A stretch of DNA of 64,000 nucleotides from contig NZ_CP085327.1 of assembly GCF_020614375.1 (NCBI RefSeq), positions 682,001 through 746,000 of the forward strand, written 5' to 3'. The first letter of the stretch is position 1, and each line of letters begins with the position of its first letter. This document shows positions 43,141 to 63,173 of the stretch, in pieces. The DNA is from Haladaptatus salinisoli. GTDB lineage: Archaea; Halobacteriota; Halobacteria; Halobacteriales; Haladaptataceae. Below the pieces are notes generated by a model. It was not told the DNA's origin and searched no databases. It saw only the letters and a list, made by a program, of their open reading frames with translations. A program made the translations under genes and the position numbers.

Positions 43141-43551
43141 TTACTGCCGAGACGAGTGTTCCTCGACGTTCGCCGCGAGTTCCACGAACAGTTCGAACGC
43201 CTCGGACTGCACGTCGTACTCCACGAACTCCCCCGTCCGTTCGAAGCGCACGACGCCGGCGCTGGCGAGTTTCGGGAGGTGGGTGTGGAGCAATTCGACG
43301 CGGAGTCGCTGCTGTTTGGACGGCGACGGCGCGATGGCCGCCTCCTCTTCCATCGTTCGCACGTGCTCGACGAGGGATTCGACGACCGCCGTCTCGTGCT
43401 CGCGGAGATGGTAGAGAACGTATCGACGGCGACGGTTGGCGAGTACGTCCAGAATCACCTCCAGCGGAACGTCGGCACCGACGAGAACGTCGTCGAGCGG
43501 TTTAACCGAGTCGTGTTCTCGAACCAGCAACTCGAACGCGTCGTTCGCCAT
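43141..43551 (-). CDS. Winged-helix regulator, DUF7344 type
   Basis: The 136-residue protein has ILDVLANRRRRYVLYHLREH near residue 32, a linker with EEEAAIAPSPSK, then LLHTHLPKLASAGVVRFER near residue 88. This is the winged-helix DUF7344 layout often found in haloarchaeal regulators. It is convergent with the acyl-CoA ligase gene, ending just after it, and could regulate lipid or the adjoining CHAT module genes. No ligand-binding domain is present. Confidence 0.88.
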   Translation of the reverse strand: MANDAFELLVREHDSVKPLDDVLVGADVPLEVILDVLANRRRRYVLYHLREHETAVVESLVEHVRTMEEEAAIAPSPSKQQRLRVELLHTHLPKLASAGVVRFERTGEFVEYDVQSEAFELFVELAANVEEHSSRQ

Positions 43552-43847
43552 GGTCACCGGTTCTAGGTCGGTCGACGAATAAAACCACACGATAATTTCA
43601 TCAGAGAGCAGTTGGTGAAAATGTATGCGCGGAACGGGCCGTACGAACGGAAACGGACCCGTTACTCGGCGGAAATTTGTCGTTTACCCGATCGGAACGG
43701 GGAAAGAGGCGATTACCGCGAAGTAATCGGAGTGTACCGTCGAGCTAGAAATTTATTATCTCCGGCTGGAAGTGGCAAGCGGTAATTGCTTCCGGATATT
43801 AAACCTTAAGTTAACTATATGCCCTCCGGGGGCCCTCGTAAGCCTGC
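43552..43847. other. AT-richer region upstream of the DUF7503 peptide gene
   Basis: This 296-base gap between two divergent genes is AT-rich relative to its surroundings. It holds a perfect dyad (CGATTAC and GTAATCG, six bases apart, at 43710-43729), a TATA-like AATTTATTAT around 43749-43758 and another TTAAACC around 43799. These are likely the promoter and operator of the DUF7503 gene. I see no gene in it. Confidence 0.55.
43710..43729. promoter_or_regulatory. Perfect 7-bp dyad, possible operator of the DUF7503 gene
   Basis: CGATTAC (43710-43716) and GTAATCG (43723-43729) are exact reverse complements across CGCGAA. The site lies about 20 bases upstream of an AATTTATTAT TATA-like stretch and about 120 before the peptide's ATG. 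Confidence 0.45.
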
Positions 43848-43988
43848 ATGTCGCAGAGAAACCAAGCGTTACGAAACTACCTCGCCGAGAATCCGCGAAT
43901 GATGGGCGTCGCCTTCGCCATCCTGCTCGCGCTGACGCAAGCGGGTAACACCGCCGCCGCGCACGGCGGCGGCATCTCCGGACCCTAG
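43848..43988 (+). CDS. DUF7503 family small hydrophobic peptide
   Basis: The 46-residue peptide begins MSQRNQALRNYLAENPRMM, followed by one hydrophobic segment (about residues 19-34) and a tail AAHGGGISGP. The ENPRM-GV-F-LL-QAG-AAA pattern is how I remember the haloarchaeal DUF7503 family. A single hydrophobic segment without a clear signal-peptide cleavage site suggests a small membrane peptide. It converges on the CHAT gene and their stop codons share the palindrome CTAG. It could be a substrate, a toxin or a regulator of the CHAT protein; none is shown. Confidence 0.75.
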   Translation: MSQRNQALRNYLAENPRMMGVAFAILLALTQAGNTAAAHGGGISGP

Positions 43989-46108
43989 GACAGGAGGTCG
44001 AAGGAGAGTTCCGTCGACCAGCGGAGTTCCCCGTCGACGGAGACCGGCAGCTGTTCCAGTTGGAAGATGTAGACGAGTTCGGCGGTCGAAACGGAGAGCT
44101 CCGGAATCGAACCGCCGGCGAGGAAGTAGGAGTCGACGTCGTCGAGGTACGGGATATAGAGGGAACCGATTCCCCTGTTCGCCGTCGGATACGTCGTTAT
44201 TTTCACGCGGTACTCGTCGTCCGCCTCCCCGGTGCGGAGTCGATACAGCGCCGGAAAGCTACTCTCGCACTGCGCGACCTCGACGCTCCCGTCGCCGATG
44301 ACGACGTACTGGTTCGCCACGAGTCGGTGCTCGCCGACGACCGCCAGCGCCGAGCGGAGCGAGAAGCCCGCGTTGAGCAGGCGCGCGACCTGCCGACCGA
44401 CGGCGATGGCTCCGTCGTTGCCGACGTCGCCGTGCGTGACGATACCGCCGACGCTCCCGTTCTCGACGAGGCCGAGCCCCTGTCGATAGGAGTTACAGCC
44501 GTTCAGGAAGAACGTCTCGACGCCGGTTCCGTCGAGCGATCGCGCGTCGAGCGTCCCGTCCGCGCAGACGAACCCCCGCTCGTCGATGTGACCGATGTAG
44601 TGGAGGAAGTCCGTCTCCGACGCGAGCAGTCGCTCCAGCGCCTCGGTGGAGAGGTTCTCGTGGACGGTGACGTCGAACGGAAGCTCGTCCCGCTGGCCGT
44701 ACAGCGCGCTGTCGTCGTTGTCGTACTCGGCGCGCATCCGGTCGTCGTTACAGACGATGTCGATGTCGATATCGCCGTCGGACGCGGTTCGCTCCCAGCG
44801 GTGGTCGAACGCGCTCCGGAGCAGTTTGTTCGCGCCGAACGGTCGGCCGGTTCCGAGCCACGCCTGCTCCAGCGCGTCCGTCGCCGGCGGTACGACGTAC
44901 GGTTCGTCGGTCCCCTCCCGTCCGCGACGAGCGTCCGTCGACCGACCGAACTCCGCAGAGCGGGCGAACTCCGCCGAACGAGCGGGCGCCGACCGGACGA
45001 ACTCGTCCACGTACGACGGTGCCGCGGCCCGCGTTCGCGCGGCCGCTCCCGCCGTCGCTCGCCGCACGACGGCGAGTTCGTCGACGAGGTACGGGAGCAA
45101 CGCGACGTTATCGGCTTCCGGGGTCACCGACACCGTGAGCCGCCACGTCGGAATCGCGTCCCGAACGGCGTCGAACGGTACGGAGAGATACGTCTCCAGT
45201 CGCTCCCCGAGCGACGCGTCGTACAGGTCGGCGAGCGGGAGGTCGAGGGTCCCCTCGACGGCGCGACGCTCGTGGAGTTCGACCGGGTACAGCCCCTCGG
45301 TCCTGACCAGACAGTCGAAGAACAACGCCTGCTTGAGGACCCGTTCGACCTCCGCGTCGAATCCGCGGTCGGCGTCCAAGGGATGTTCGAACCCGCTATC
45401 GGTGACGATGCGCGACCGCTCCCCCGGAACGAGCGTCGCACCGAGGTAGTACGCGAGCGGCGCGGCGACGTACGCCCGCTCGCGCTCGGCGGGAACTTCG
45501 ATTCGAATGCCGGTGTCTGAGGGCGAGACTCCGTCGGGGATTTCGAGGCGGTCGCCGAGTTCGATCGTCGGCGGGTGGCCGCGCAGCGTTGGAAACGACC
45601 GCTCGGGGCTGGTGGTCTTGAGCGCCGACCCGAACGTCGAAATCGCCGCCATCACGTCGACCGGGTCGGCCGTCGTCCGCACCGTCTCCGCCGGGCGTTC
45701 GTGATACGACCGCGCGCCGACTCGCACGGTCGTCTCGTCCTCGAAATCGAACGCGACGTGTTCGAGCGCGGACGTGACCGTCACCCCGCTCTCGACGAAG
45801 ACGAAGAGCTTGATCGGCGCGTGCAGTTCGATGCAGTACTCCGCCGCCGGCAGTCGCTCCCGGGTGTCCCGTTCGATTTCGCGGACGAGGGTGCCGTCTC
45901 CCCGGCGGACGTGGGCTTCGACGAAGTACGGAAGCACCAGTCGAGCGGTGTCGATTTCGACCGCGCTGTCGGTCGGAACGGAGAACCGGTCGGTGTCGAC
46001 CGGCTCCGGACGAACCGGCGAGGACGTTCTGAATTCGAACCGCCGGTCGTGGATGGGGTCGAATATCGACAGTCGAGGGCCGGCGGCCGGCGAGAACGTC
46101 GGTTTCAC
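43985..46108 (-). CDS. CHAT-domain (caspase-like) protein, copy 1
   Basis: The 707-residue protein has a conserved N-terminal region (FGSALKTTSPERSFPTLRG near residue 165, LAYYLGATLVPG near 230), a variable Arg/Ala/Ser-rich middle (about 355-410) and a C-terminal CHAT domain. The dyad is His507 in HYIGH and Cys538 in LNGCNSY, with an NxVxG-like continuation. CHAT proteins are caspase-fold proteases related to separase. The start is GTG (no ATG lies in frame before it); a purine-rich GGGGGGTG precedes it. It follows the HalOD1/DUF7504 gene by 81 bases, in the same frame. Confidence 0.87.
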   Translation of the reverse strand: MKPTFSPAAGPRLSIFDPIHDRRFEFRTSSPVRPEPVDTDRFSVPTDSAVEIDTARLVLPYFVEAHVRRGDGTLVREIERDTRERLPAAEYCIELHAPIKLFVFVESGVTVTSALEHVAFDFEDETTVRVGARSYHERPAETVRTTADPVDVMAAISTFGSALKTTSPERSFPTLRGHPPTIELGDRLEIPDGVSPSDTGIRIEVPAERERAYVAAPLAYYLGATLVPGERSRIVTDSGFEHPLDADRGFDAEVERVLKQALFFDCLVRTEGLYPVELHERRAVEGTLDLPLADLYDASLGERLETYLSVPFDAVRDAIPTWRLTVSVTPEADNVALLPYLVDELAVVRRATAGAAARTRAAAPSYVDEFVRSAPARSAEFARSAEFGRSTDARRGREGTDEPYVVPPATDALEQAWLGTGRPFGANKLLRSAFDHRWERTASDGDIDIDIVCNDDRMRAEYDNDDSALYGQRDELPFDVTVHENLSTEALERLLASETDFLHYIGHIDERGFVCADGTLDARSLDGTGVETFFLNGCNSYRQGLGLVENGSVGGIVTHGDVGNDGAIAVGRQVARLLNAGFSLRSALAVVGEHRLVANQYVVIGDGSVEVAQCESSFPALYRLRTGEADDEYRVKITTYPTANRGIGSLYIPYLDDVDSYFLAGGSIPELSVSTAELVYIFQLEQLPVSVDGELRWSTELSFDLLS

Positions 46109-46147
46109 GCGCGCACCCCCCGCCCCCGTTCCACTCCCGTCCCGCGA

Positions 46148-46173
46148 CCGCTCGCCGATACGTCGGCGAGCGG
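46148..46173. repeat. 11-bp perfect hairpin between the DUF7504 and CHAT genes
   Basis: Bases 46148-46158 (CCGCTCGCCGA) pair perfectly with 46163-46173 (TCGGCGAGCGG) across TACG. It begins 16 bases after the stop codon of the upstream gene in transcription order and ends 39 bases before the CHAT GTG. No T-run follows on the coding strand, so it may be an attenuator or RNA-processing site and not a plain terminator. Confidence 0.7.
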
Positions 46174-46189
46174 GCGAATCCTGTCCATT

Positions 46190-47146
46190 CTATTCGAGTT
46201 CCAGACCGAACCAGTCGGTCGTAAACTCCGTGTCGGGGAGGTGCCAGCGTTGTTCGGGGCCGATTTCGCCGACGCGGAGTTCGACCGTGGCGTCGAACAG
46301 GGGTTCGATGGCGGCCACCTCGGGCGTGTTCCGTTCCGCCGGAAGAACGTAGTGGGCCACTCCGGAGAGGTCTTCGACGGTGTCGAAACAGTCCTCGAGG
46401 AACTGCTTCGCGTCGCCCTCTCCGTGCTCGTCGACGACCGGCCGGAGGGAGTCGAAACAGAAGCGAAGTTCGGCGGGGTCCATTCCGCGGCGTTCGTAGT
46501 CTATCTTCCGCAGCGTTCGGTCGATCTCTCGTTGGAAGTCGAAGAGGTCGCCGACGACCTCCGTCACTCGACGGTCGGTCGAAGCGGACGCGTCGGGCGT
46601 ACCGGAGACCGCCGACCGGGCTTCGGCGCTGAAGTTGAGGACGTAACCCCCGTTCGAGGCCGTCCCGACCCCCGAAAGCCTCCTGTTAGCCGTGGTCACG
46701 TTTCGGTCGTGGAGCGCGACGACCTGCGTCCTATCCGGGTCGTCGCGTCCGAGCAGTTGGACGCTGACCGCGTCCACGACCCGATCGGGCACCAGCCCCG
46801 TGAGCAGGAGGTTTCCGCCCGTCTGCTTGATCCGGGCGAGTTCGGATTCGACTTCCACGACGCCGTCCGCGGAAACCGTAACGTAGTGCCCGTGGAGCGC
46901 GAACGAGACCGTTCCGGCGGTTCGGTCCCTCCCGTCCGGCCTCGGGGCGAACAGGGCGTCGAGCGCGTCCGGATCGATGACGTCGTACAACGGTACCTCG
47001 ATATCGGCAGGGGTCACGCCGGCCGCTTCGGCGACTGTCTCGACCACCGTCGTGCCGAGCATTCGGTCGCTTCGCCATGCATTCGGCTCGTGTACCTTCG
47101 TGACGCCGGATTCCGATGACCGGCCACTACCGTCCTCTCCATCCAT
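46190..47146 (-). CDS. HalOD1 domain fused to DUF7504 (RecA/KaiC-like, no P-loop)
   Basis: The 318-residue protein has a haloarchaeal output domain 1 (HalOD1) at about residues 15-100 (TTVVETVAEAAGVTPADIEV near 32, then VSADGVVEVE) and a DUF7504-type domain from about 105 (GGNLLLTG, then AELRFCFDSLRPVVDEHG, GVAHYVLP and QRWHLPDTEFTTDW). The RecA/KaiC-like core is visible but GGNLLLTG has no GKT, so ATP binding is doubtful. HalOD1 is known as an output domain of haloarchaeal two-component proteins. It is upstream of and co-directional with the CHAT gene. Confidence 0.88.
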   Translation of the reverse strand: MDGEDGSGRSSESGVTKVHEPNAWRSDRMLGTTVVETVAEAAGVTPADIEVPLYDVIDPDALDALFAPRPDGRDRTAGTVSFALHGHYVTVSADGVVEVESELARIKQTGGNLLLTGLVPDRVVDAVSVQLLGRDDPDRTQVVALHDRNVTTANRRLSGVGTASNGGYVLNFSAEARSAVSGTPDASASTDRRVTEVVGDLFDFQREIDRTLRKIDYERRGMDPAELRFCFDSLRPVVDEHGEGDAKQFLEDCFDTVEDLSGVAHYVLPAERNTPEVAAIEPLFDATVELRVGEIGPEQRWHLPDTEFTTDWFGLELE

Positions 47147-60375: not shown

Positions 60376-62478
60376 TCAGTCGAGGTCGGCGGCGGAGATG
60401 TCGTCGCTCCAGTAGAGGTCGCCCTCGTACTCTACCGGAGCCGCTTCTAGGTCGAAATACGCGTCGAGCTCGTCCTCCGTCAGTTCGAACGATTCGATGG
60501 TCCCGGGACCGAGATACTGCTTCGTCACGCTATCGACGTTTATTCCGATGGTACTACCCATACCCAAGTGGTGGTCGACGTACCACTCCTGTCTTACGCG
60601 GAACGTCTCCTCGTCGACTCGACGGAGGCGGAAGTAGGAACACCCGCCCGAGCGTGACTGACAGAGCGTCGTTCCCCCGTCGCCGATGGTGATGTACTGG
60701 TATCCGGCGAGCGTCTGTCCGCGCGCGATGGACAGCGCGACTCGAAACGGAAATCCGGTGTTAAGGAGGCGAGCAAGCGTTCGTCCGACTCTCGTGGCAA
60801 CCTGATTGGACACCTCCGAGAGGGTGACGACGCCCGTGTGACTTCCCTTCTCGACCAACGCCGCACCCTGTTCGTACGAGCGACAGGCGTTGAGGAGGAA
60901 CGTTTGCACGTTCACCGCGTCGAGACGCCGCGCGTCGAGAACGCCATCGGCGCACCGGATTCCCCGATGGTCGACGTGACCGACGTAGTGGAGGAAATCG
61001 GTGGGAGTTGCGAGCTGCTCGCGAAGCTCGTCGGTGGTGAGGTCGTACGCCAGTTCGACGTCGTAGTCGATCATGTCACGGAAACCGTACAGCTCCTCGA
61101 CCCTCCCTTCCTCGCGCATGCTCGCGTCGTTACAGATGACTCGAATTCGAACGGTGGGATCGTCGGTCGGGTCGAACTCGACTCGACGCCGTAGCGACTC
61201 GACGGTCACCTTGTTGCTCCCCATCGGATACCCGTCACCGATCCACGCGTGTTCGGCGCTCTCGACCGGTTCCGGTTCGACTATCGGCGGTTTCGACTCG
61301 TCATCGCCGGACTCCGCGACCGCGTCTCGACAGAACTCGGTCAGAGTCCGCGGGGGTGCGTCGATGGTGGCGTCGTTCACCCGTGACGGACACCGTATCA
61401 GGGCGAGGTCGTTCGCCACGAACGGGAGGACGTCGACGTTCGTGCTCGTCGGCACGACGTCGGTCGTCAAGTGCCACTCGGGTACGTGCGGTTCGAGCGT
61501 TTCGAACGGGACGTCGAGATACGTCCCGAGACGTTCGGATAACGGTGCGTCGTAGAGTGCGGCGAAGTCGAGATCGACCGACGGTTCGATCGCGTCGCGC
61601 TCGTGCAGGGTGATCGGATAATAACCCTCGGTTCGCACCACGCAATCGAGGAACCACACCTGTCGAAGTACGCGACCGACGGTCGATTCGTAGCCGTTCG
61701 AACCCGTTAGCGAGTACTCGAATCCGTCCCCCACGAGGGCGGGTTCGGTTCCCGGAACGAGCGTCGCCCCGAGGTAGTGCGCGAGCGACGCGGCCGGATA
61801 CACGTACTCTCGCTTCGGCGGGAGCGCAAGGTGGACGTTCGTGTTCGGCGGTTCGAGTTCTTTCGGAGCCGAAAACTCCTCACCGCGTTCGATAGCCGGC
61901 GGATGTCCCCTGAGCGTGGGATACGCGCGCTCGGGGCTGGTGGTCTTGAGCGCCGACCCGAACAGCGACACCGCCCGCATCGCGTCCTCGACATCACCCG
62001 TTACAGTGATCGTTCCCGCCGGGCGCGTGTGTAGCGATCGAGCGCCCAAACGCACCGTCTGCTCGTCGTCGAATTCGATGACGGTAGTTTCGTCGTCGCG
62101 GTTCACCCGAACCGCGGATTCGACGCCGAGATAGAGGTTGATCGGTGTCGGTGAGACCTGCAGGTAGTACTCGTTCGGAGCAACGGACAGTTCGTCCGCG
62201 TTCAGGTCGAACCGTTCCACGACTGTTTGCGCTCCGTTCCAGAAATCAACCGTGAAAATGCCCGGTAGAACAATCCGTCGCGTCGATAACGCCACCGCCG
62301 AGTCCATCGGAAACGGAAAGTCGTCCGTATCGACCGACCGCAGCGATACGGGGTCGGACGTGTGTAGTTCGAATCGAACGTTCTCGATCGGATCGAATAT
62401 CGCTACGCCCGACGGATTCGAAATCCGGTCGAATCTCGGAGCGACTGACGACTCGTCGTCCGAATCAAATCGATTCAT
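60376..62478 (-). CDS. CHAT-domain (caspase-like) protein, copy 2
   Basis: The 700-residue protein matches copy 1 along its length: FGSALKTTSPERAYPTLRG near residue 165, LAHYLGATLVPG near 230 and the C-terminal CHAT domain with His501 in HYVGH and Cys532 in LNACRSY. The His-Cys spacing (31 residues) is the same in both copies. The middle linker lacks the Arg/Ala/Ser-rich insertion of copy 1. The ATG overlaps the DUF7504 stop by three of four bases (ATGA), so the two proteins are made together. Confidence 0.9.
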   Translation of the reverse strand: MNRFDSDDESSVAPRFDRISNPSGVAIFDPIENVRFELHTSDPVSLRSVDTDDFPFPMDSAVALSTRRIVLPGIFTVDFWNGAQTVVERFDLNADELSVAPNEYYLQVSPTPINLYLGVESAVRVNRDDETTVIEFDDEQTVRLGARSLHTRPAGTITVTGDVEDAMRAVSLFGSALKTTSPERAYPTLRGHPPAIERGEEFSAPKELEPPNTNVHLALPPKREYVYPAASLAHYLGATLVPGTEPALVGDGFEYSLTGSNGYESTVGRVLRQVWFLDCVVRTEGYYPITLHERDAIEPSVDLDFAALYDAPLSERLGTYLDVPFETLEPHVPEWHLTTDVVPTSTNVDVLPFVANDLALIRCPSRVNDATIDAPPRTLTEFCRDAVAESGDDESKPPIVEPEPVESAEHAWIGDGYPMGSNKVTVESLRRRVEFDPTDDPTVRIRVICNDASMREEGRVEELYGFRDMIDYDVELAYDLTTDELREQLATPTDFLHYVGHVDHRGIRCADGVLDARRLDAVNVQTFLLNACRSYEQGAALVEKGSHTGVVTLSEVSNQVATRVGRTLARLLNTGFPFRVALSIARGQTLAGYQYITIGDGGTTLCQSRSGGCSYFRLRRVDEETFRVRQEWYVDHHLGMGSTIGINVDSVTKQYLGPGTIESFELTEDELDAYFDLEAAPVEYEGDLYWSDDISAADLD

Positions 62479-63173
62479 ATCTGAACCCAGTTCGTCGTCC
62501 GGTCGTACTCCGGAACGTGCCAGCGCTGTTTCGGCACCAATCCGTCGCCCTGCTTCACTTCGATGCGCGCGTCGAACAGCGGCGACAGTTCCCGCACCAG
62601 CGCGTCGTCGTCCGGAAGCGGCAGGTGGTAGTGCGCCATGCCGCGAACGCCGCGGACGAGCGCCGTGACGATTCGAAGGAACTGTTCGACGGTGTCGCGG
62701 TCGTACCGTTCGAGCGGTTTGACGAGCGAATCGAACGACAGTCGAAGTTCCGAGGGGGCGAGACCGTCGGCCCACTCGTCGAAGAAGCTGACGGCGGTGA
62801 CGATGTCCGACCGGAGGTCGCGGAGACCGACCTCGGCGGAGGCGTTCGGTCCCGGGACGGTCGGGGTCGGCCTCGAACTGGCGGCGCGCTCGTCGTTCCC
62901 CCAGTCGATTATCCACACGTCGGCGTCGTCCGTCCTCGTGCCCGCGGGGAGTTTCGCCCCGGCGTACCGGGCGGTCGCGTCCGCGAGAACGAGGACGCGC
63001 TTTCGCTCCTCCGTGCTCGCGCCGAGCAGTTGTATCGTCGTTCGGTTCGTGGTCGTCTCGGAGACTCGTCCGGTGACGAGGATGTTACACCCTCGCCGTT
63101 TGAAGTCGGCGAGAACCTCGCGAAACTCGACCGAGTCGTTCCCGCCGCGGAACGAGATCTCTGCGGGACGCAT
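62475..63173 (-). CDS. DUF7504 protein (RecA/KaiC-like, no P-loop), partner of CHAT copy 2
   Basis: The 232-residue protein has only the DUF7504 domain and no HalOD1. GCNILVTG near residue 32 corresponds to the degenerate P-loop strand, and SELRLSFDSLVKPLERYDRD, GMAHYHLPLPDDD and QRWHVPEYDRTTNW match the HalOD1-fused copy at 46-47 kb position for position. It has its own TATA box and overlaps the CHAT gene by ATGA. Both copies thus pair a DUF7504 protein with a CHAT protein. Confidence 0.88.
   Translation of the reverse strand: MRPAEISFRGGNDSVEFREVLADFKRRGCNILVTGRVSETTTNRTTIQLLGASTEERKRVLVLADATARYAGAKLPAGTRTDDADVWIIDWGNDERAASSRPTPTVPGPNASAEVGLRDLRSDIVTAVSFFDEWADGLAPSELRLSFDSLVKPLERYDRDTVEQFLRIVTALVRGVRGMAHYHLPLPDDDALVRELSPLFDARIEVKQGDGLVPKQRWHVPEYDRTTNWVQI

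Follow-up and report, generated by a model that had tools for sequence, protein, structure and literature searches.

What might a protein of caspase-like fold do for a salt-loving archaeon when the gene that faces it encodes only a tiny peptide? The question is raised by a locus of Haladaptatus salinisoli within a stretch of 64,000 nucleotides (nt; contig NZ_CP085327.1, positions 682,001 to 746,000 of the forward strand), called the window in this text. A CHAT gene and a DUF7503 peptide gene run towards each other there and share a CTAG (43985-43988) in which, as read from the sequence, both stop codons overlap, and a gene for a HalOD1-DUF7504 protein lies upstream of CHAT. A preliminary description had listed these three genes, their order and the convergent CTAG end, all of which the sequence and Pfam bear out, and had treated them as one module. 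The conserved unit is the CHAT gene with its convergent peptide gene, a near-obligate pairing, rather than a three-gene module.

Pairing of CHAT and DUF7503 genes

The pairing was surveyed at 118 CHAT copies (8 from the own genome, 29 from other sampled genomes and 81 from named genomes), which correspond to 108 distinct proteins, 10 being common to both sources. A DUF7503 gene lies within 1,500 bases of CHAT in 110 of the 118 and is convergent with it in 109 of those 110. The gaps are mostly -4 to 13 nt, with -4 and 0 the commonest, and extend up to 253 and twice to 822; in Haloarcula and others the pair is still kept at gaps of 50-250 nt. Nine copies are exceptions, eight without a DUF7503 match and one (L134) not convergent. 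Seven of these nine carry in the same slot another or a partly masked small protein with a Gly-Pro (GP) end: a partly masked peptide with a DUF7503-like tail ending in AGP (L123), a divergent DUF7503-like protein (L140), tandem-repeat proteins (L035, L093 and L124) or proteins without a hydrophobic stretch that end in YSGP (L107 and L110). Reading of the slots of L005 and L134 revealed no peptide of this kind.

The same link is seen from the side of the peptide, since a convergent CHAT sequence is present at all 30 DUF7503 loci fetched. Of 391 genomes sampled from the class of the window, 366 hold at least one CHAT copy; DUF7503 occurs in 335, all of them inside those 366 (lists compared by hand), and in none of the 25 CHAT-less genomes. 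CHAT without DUF7503 is found in 31 genomes, six of which are of the Haloplanus repeat type described below; in the other 25 the best CHAT E-values (1e-152 to 8e-4) are weaker than in most sampled genomes. The own genome contains 11 CHAT-family copies. All eight DUF7503 genes found in it are tail-to-tail with one of them, and a ninth copy (L225) faces a convergent peptide with an ATTGP end which the Pfam search did not report. Haloferax species also carry the pair (e.g., L106, L113 and L121), and the DUF7503 profile matches the genome of Haloferax volcanii too. At one of the 30 fetched loci, L142 in genome G368, a second DUF7503 copy with an identical score lies next to CHAT sequence that is split across several reading frames.

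The pairing was further examined at 24 additional CHAT loci (22 in genomes that lack DUF7503) by looking for an ATG-started convergent open reading frame (ORF) of 25-150 residues with a GP end at most 150 nt from CHAT. Ten of the 24 have such an ORF, unreported by the DUF7503 Pfam search; about 0.0013 per locus would be expected, since the named loci hold 16 of these ORFs in 927 kb. The CHAT proteins of these ten loci are 32-44% identical to that of the window. Divergent CHAT genes in two genomes of one genus (L198 and L213) lie beside 29-residue ORFs without a hydrophobic stretch, which have the end LDGSSSPYTGP in common and differ elsewhere.

The third gene behaves differently. By an approximate rule, DUF7504 lies directly upstream of CHAT in 67 of the 118 copies and a HalOD1-alignable part in 32, and the 20 loci lacking DUF7504 that were read have no upstream gene in common. 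A fixed three-gene module is thus rejected, HalOD1-DUF7504 being frequent beside CHAT but optional. Of the linkage across haloarchaea envisaged in the preliminary description, the part joining CHAT to DUF7503 holds (109 of 118 convergent), whereas the part extending to DUF7504 does not.

Fold and family of the CHAT protein and its partner

The window CHAT, modelled with a mean predicted local distance difference test (pLDDT) score of 88, shows a caspase-like alpha/beta fold at about residues 322-612 (model, VIA-align and Foldseek), the first 320 residues lying outside the caspase-like region. His507 and Cys538, in that order, are invariant in 65 of 65 family sequences and stand in the window protein in the motifs HYIGH and LNGC. 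The CHAT fold proposed earlier is supported by the predicted structure, and the dyad by these sequence motifs. By its fold and intact dyad, the 707-residue protein is probably a CHAT/clan CD cysteine protease, and it may be proteolytically active. This assignment rests on the fold because sequence and profile searches gave nothing useful. PF12770 (CHAT) has no match to the protein at E<=1 and none in the own genome; no Pfam family, TPR and HTH included, matches it at E<=1; and the family profile finds no PDB chain at E<=0.7. Identification from sequence by Pfam, NCBIfam, PADLOC and PDB profile searches was therefore dropped.

The nearest named relative found, from Haladaptatus halobius, is 86% identical across residues 1-707. 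Phylum-wide, the A2 profile matches 50 of 294 genomes, all in the window's order save four of one family; the GH and Cys motifs are discernible by eye in all four of these relatives (least clearly in L238), and none of the four has a convergent GP peptide beside it. Matches to plasmids number 24 records, all haloarchaeal judging by genus name. A phage or viral origin was dropped, as there was no match in 50,697 phage records and none was confirmed in viral contigs.

In the upstream protein, HalOD1 (81.8 bits) and DUF7504 (138.2 bits) both exceed their Pfam cut-offs. DUF7504 has a KaiC/RecA-like fold (Foldseek KaiC E 3e-7) and its Walker A motif is not recognisable, in agreement with the earlier reading of HalOD1 fused to a P-loop-less RecA/KaiC-like domain. 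A DUF7504 paralogue of the own genome (L056, C1:225466-225984) contains a P-loop-like GPPMTGK, which suggests that DUF7504 may descend from a KaiC-like ATPase. The NCBIfam model of DdfA (NF053557) scores 71.4 bits against a cut-off of 70, the match being confined to residues 32-97 of 318. DdfA of H. volcanii likewise has a HalOD1 domain (PMC10869688); unlike DdfA, the window protein has its HalOD1 fused to DUF7504. The own genome has 56 HalOD1 matches, most often in open frames of <180 codons, a large expansion.

Table 1. Coordinates of the features of the CHAT-DUF7503 locus within the window
Feature	Position	Strand	Basis
DUF7503 peptide gene, 46 aa	43848..43988	+	PF24335 E 2.7e-17
Variable-tail codons, HGGGISGP	43962..43985	+	family alignment
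CTAG overlap of the two stops	43985..43988	.	sequence
CHAT/clan CD cysteine-protease-like protein, 707 aa	43985..46108	-	model, VIA-align, Foldseek
His507 codon, motif HYIGH	44588..44590	-	invariant 65/65
Cys538 codon, motif FFLNGC	44495..44497	-	invariant 65/65
HalOD1-DUF7504 gene, 318 aa, upstream of CHAT, same direction	46190..47146	-	Pfam; model mean pLDDT 87
HalOD1 domain, residues 30-100	46847..47059	-	PF18545 E 3.9e-23
DUF7504 domain, residues 110-290	46277..46819	-	PF24336 E 5.4e-40
Likely DUF7503 promoter region	43758..43827	+	AT-rich in family; promoter label by eye

A DUF7344 gene (43141-43590, minus strand) stands just past the region upstream of DUF7503. The window also holds a second CHAT paralogue (about 60394-62439, minus strand), 45% identical to the first. 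Directly upstream of it lies a DUF7504 gene (62475-63173, minus strand) too short for HalOD1, and the next gene beside the CHAT paralogue in the same direction appears, from a by-eye reading of its translation, to be dihydropteroate synthase-like.

The peptide and its tail

The window peptide matches DUF7503 (PF24335) with 62.5 bits against a cut-off of 27 and consists, in order, of an N-terminal part, NPRM, a short hydrophobic stretch, TAAA and an eight-residue tail with a GP end. In an alignment of 123 distinct DUF7503 proteins from 140 copies, the hydrophobic stretch is preceded by an invariant Pro and, in 122, by Arg or Lys, and is followed by a conserved Gln-Ala-Gly and then by a small/Val-x-Ala site in 114 (strict count). 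The tail, of 7-10 residues and of 12 in one peptide, ends in GP in 92 and is otherwise variable; it is free of charged residues in 100. The N-terminal part is slightly acidic, with a mean charge of -0.46. In build, DUF7503 resembles a signal peptide whose mature portion is very short, judging by a leader pattern that was counted rather than scored by a predictor.

Among close relatives taken as independent family pairs, the pooled ratio of nonsynonymous to synonymous differences (pN/pS) is 0.22, with the leader at 0.22 and the tail, minus its last two residues, at 0.25; the gene is therefore translated and its tail is under selection. In 126 distinct family members, the A+T content reaches its maximum, 0.79-0.87, in the bins covering -40 to -26 upstream of the ATG, and the peptide gene likely has its own promoter, a label given by eye from this peak. 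A block TATCAGA...CGAAAA found ahead of several DUF7503 genes (e.g., L106 and L143; the 7-mer TATCAGA in 21 of 126) may be a regulator site. As for a promoter motif common to the peptide gene and the CHAT operon, nhmmer gave 25 matches, few of them off the DUF7503 side, and no claim is made.

The role of the tail is best seen in eight genomes from the genus of Haloplanus ruber. Two encode an ordinary DUF7503 (ends ISGP and TSGP), whereas the protein of the other six begins with acidic or polar residues, lacks a hydrophobic stretch and contains 4-13 copies of a tail unit, for example YTADGNSGGISGP. All 13 units of L172 are distinct in DNA (mean pS 0.58), yet they show no difference in the 11 residues compared (pN 0.000); the ten units of L174 comprise six distinct DNA sequences (pS 0.39, pN 0.000). 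One unit of seven in L173 has a changed residue, and the pN of 0.049 in L176 is an artefact of serine codon-change counting, its five units being identical in protein. Because the units remain protein-identical despite their DNA divergence, the tail is the selected part, kept without the leader and retained in several copies. Two units are present in L093, from a Haloplanus metagenome genome. The exact tandem-repeat DNA pattern fits just three of the six repeat-type genomes, and its single matches in G190 and G031 (L180 and L184) were dropped, as they lie inside large unrelated proteins.

The GP end varies along the CHAT tree. In a FastTree phylogeny of 123 CHAT sequences, 27 distinct copies with non-GP peptides (ends TIR, TIS, TW and TY among others) fall in one group with support 1.0, which also holds the window CHAT, the orthologue from Haladaptatus halobius and two copies for which no nearby peptide was detected. 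The window CHAT, whose peptide keeps GP, is placed outside the rest of this group with weak support (0.33). HalOD1-DUF7504 is the usual upstream gene in the non-GP group (25 of 29, approximate labels), and two further non-GP ends (L004 and L127) occur elsewhere in the tree.

Possible mechanisms and their meaning

The reading towards which we lean, with somewhat better than even confidence, is that CHAT and the convergent peptide form a two-gene protease-peptide pair in which the tail is read by its paired CHAT as ligand or substrate. The CHAT gene would supply a cysteine protease whose fold is that of caspases, gingipains and separases and whose His/Cys dyad is intact, and the convergent gene a small precursor, in which a leader to or through the membrane precedes a short tail, usually GP-ended and differing between paralogues. 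The tail would be a regulatory ligand resembling securin or a pheromone (an inhibitor or activator, inside or outside the cell) or else a substrate to be cut. Each CHAT/tail pair could thus be its own channel, which would give several per genome, and HalOD1-DUF7504, where present, might relay the outcome or determine which state the protease is in. Leader loss in Haloplanus suggests that tail and CHAT may meet in the cytosol, and its presence in other genera points to a step at the membrane or in secretion. The dedicated, conserved CHAT-DUF7503 link fits a role of the peptide as substrate, as proposed earlier, or as partner of CHAT; the roles of effector for the peptide and of sensor for HalOD1-DUF7504 are ones that we infer.

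Such a pair would differ in several respects from known systems. Craspase (TPR-CHAT/Csx29 of type III-E CRISPR) has the substrate Csx30, whereas here the partner is a 46-residue peptide in convergent layout, and the partner is likewise a tiny peptide with a leader in comparison with separase-securin. The activated SAVED-CHAT filament (8tl0) aligns to the window CHAT only over residues 442-613. The gingipains RgpB and Kgp are secreted, while no secretion signal is seen by eye in the window CHAT. In Rgg-SHP/RRNPP systems, as here, a tiny precursor gene adjoins its reader, but the CHAT reader, in contrast to RRNPP receptors, has no Pfam TPR or HTH match. In heterocyst-forming cyanobacteria, a CHAT-type protein (HetF) and short C-terminal peptide signals (PatS/PatX) serve one process; to our knowledge, they are not convergent neighbours.

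Several observations weigh against a tail read by its CHAT. Given the 27 non-GP CHAT copies, a GP end is not an absolute need. When 79 GP and 27 non-GP pairs are compared, the differing CHAT columns are not clustered at the active site (of the 32 top columns, 13 lie in residues 1-320, 6 in 321-441, 7 in 442-612 and 6 in 613-707). At two of the 11 own-genome CHAT copies, including the second one in the window, no convergent peptide was found, and at 14 of the 24 additional loci there is no GP peptide within 150 nt, although two of the 14 (L202 and L216) have a convergent ORF, small and hydrophobic, in which GP lies close to the end but not at it. One mechanism does not easily accommodate both soluble repeat forms and a secretory-looking leader, and neighbouring genes can stay linked by shared descent without contact. 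The column contrast was itself set aside as a test, with too few events and the non-GP copies grouping together in the tree; the differences at positions 172 and 174, which fall in the conserved motif ERS(Y/F)PTLRGHPP, are at most suggestive.

A secreted signal is a possible, though rather unlikely, alternative: the DUF7503 pre-peptide would be cut by signal peptidase after small-x-Ala, the tail would serve as a pheromone, and CHAT would be its intracellular receptor or maturing protease. The short hydrophobic core with its Gln-Ala-Gly and small/Val-x-Ala site, the conserved leader before a variable and mostly uncharged tail, and the multi-copy Haloplanus tails speak for it; however, the hydrophobic leader is absent from the Haloplanus repeat forms and from Halococcus forms, and the N-terminal part is, on average, slightly acidic. 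According to passages of PMC12240190, few archaeal signal molecules are known, the quorum response of H. volcanii requires CirA and the HalOD1 protein DdfA, and the disk signal of this species is a proteinase-K-resistant small molecule, which lends no support to a peptide; for this reason DUF7503 is not claimed as that signal. Diketopiperazines derived from GP ends were dropped as well, because the tested synthetic proline diketopiperazines failed to trigger disk formation in H. volcanii (as stated in a passage of PMC12240190) and nothing ties them to this gene. A broader proposal, which we regard as speculative and improbable, is an archaeal peptide-processing system in which CHAT would mature or answer mostly GP-ended tails, single from a leader peptide in most haloarchaea or multi-copy (up to 13 protein-identical units in Haloplanus), in several insulated channels per genome; the family could be the source of the caspase-like activity of H. 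volcanii.

The remaining explanations survive less well. Bacterial gasdermins are an analogy for a protease-released, membrane-damaging partner, and a triggered CHAT might similarly cut or release the hydrophobic peptide in cell death or defence, as its fold and its small hydrophobic partner would allow. This is very unlikely, as PADLOC defence models match none of the three window proteins at E<=1, the phage and viral searches are negative, the family is nearly universal and multi-copy, and Haloplanus has lost the hydrophobic part and yet amplified the tail. There is an equally small chance that CHAT is catalytically idle and merely provides a scaffold or docking site for tails anchored in the membrane, against which stands the invariance of His and Cys. 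Read-through antisense RNA that stops joint production of peptide and CHAT, so that the proteins need not meet, would agree with the nearly universal convergence at gaps around 0 nt and with the peptide gene's own AT-rich upstream region, but it is scarcely probable with the pair kept at wider gaps and the tail selected at protein level.

In the literature searched, no paper mentions DUF7503, DUF7504 or DUF7344, and none contains both 'CHAT domain' and 'haloarchaea'. According to passages of PMC3615174, the caspase story had passed archaea by for 'a lack of gene homologues', yet extracts of H. volcanii have very high caspase-like activity that prefers LEVD and is inhibited by zVAD-fmk. This divergent CHAT family, in which the dyad is intact, is present in nearly all sampled genomes of the class and is missed by Pfam in the window's genome; it is a concrete candidate for such activity, and CHAT may be hypothesised to be its cause in H. 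volcanii. The near-obligate peptide partner offers a ready ligand or substrate test for CHAT, and if the tails are released, they would constitute an archaeal peptide-signal family. A CHAT protein together with a strongly selected tail peptide points to an undescribed protease-and-peptide pair in salt-loving archaea.

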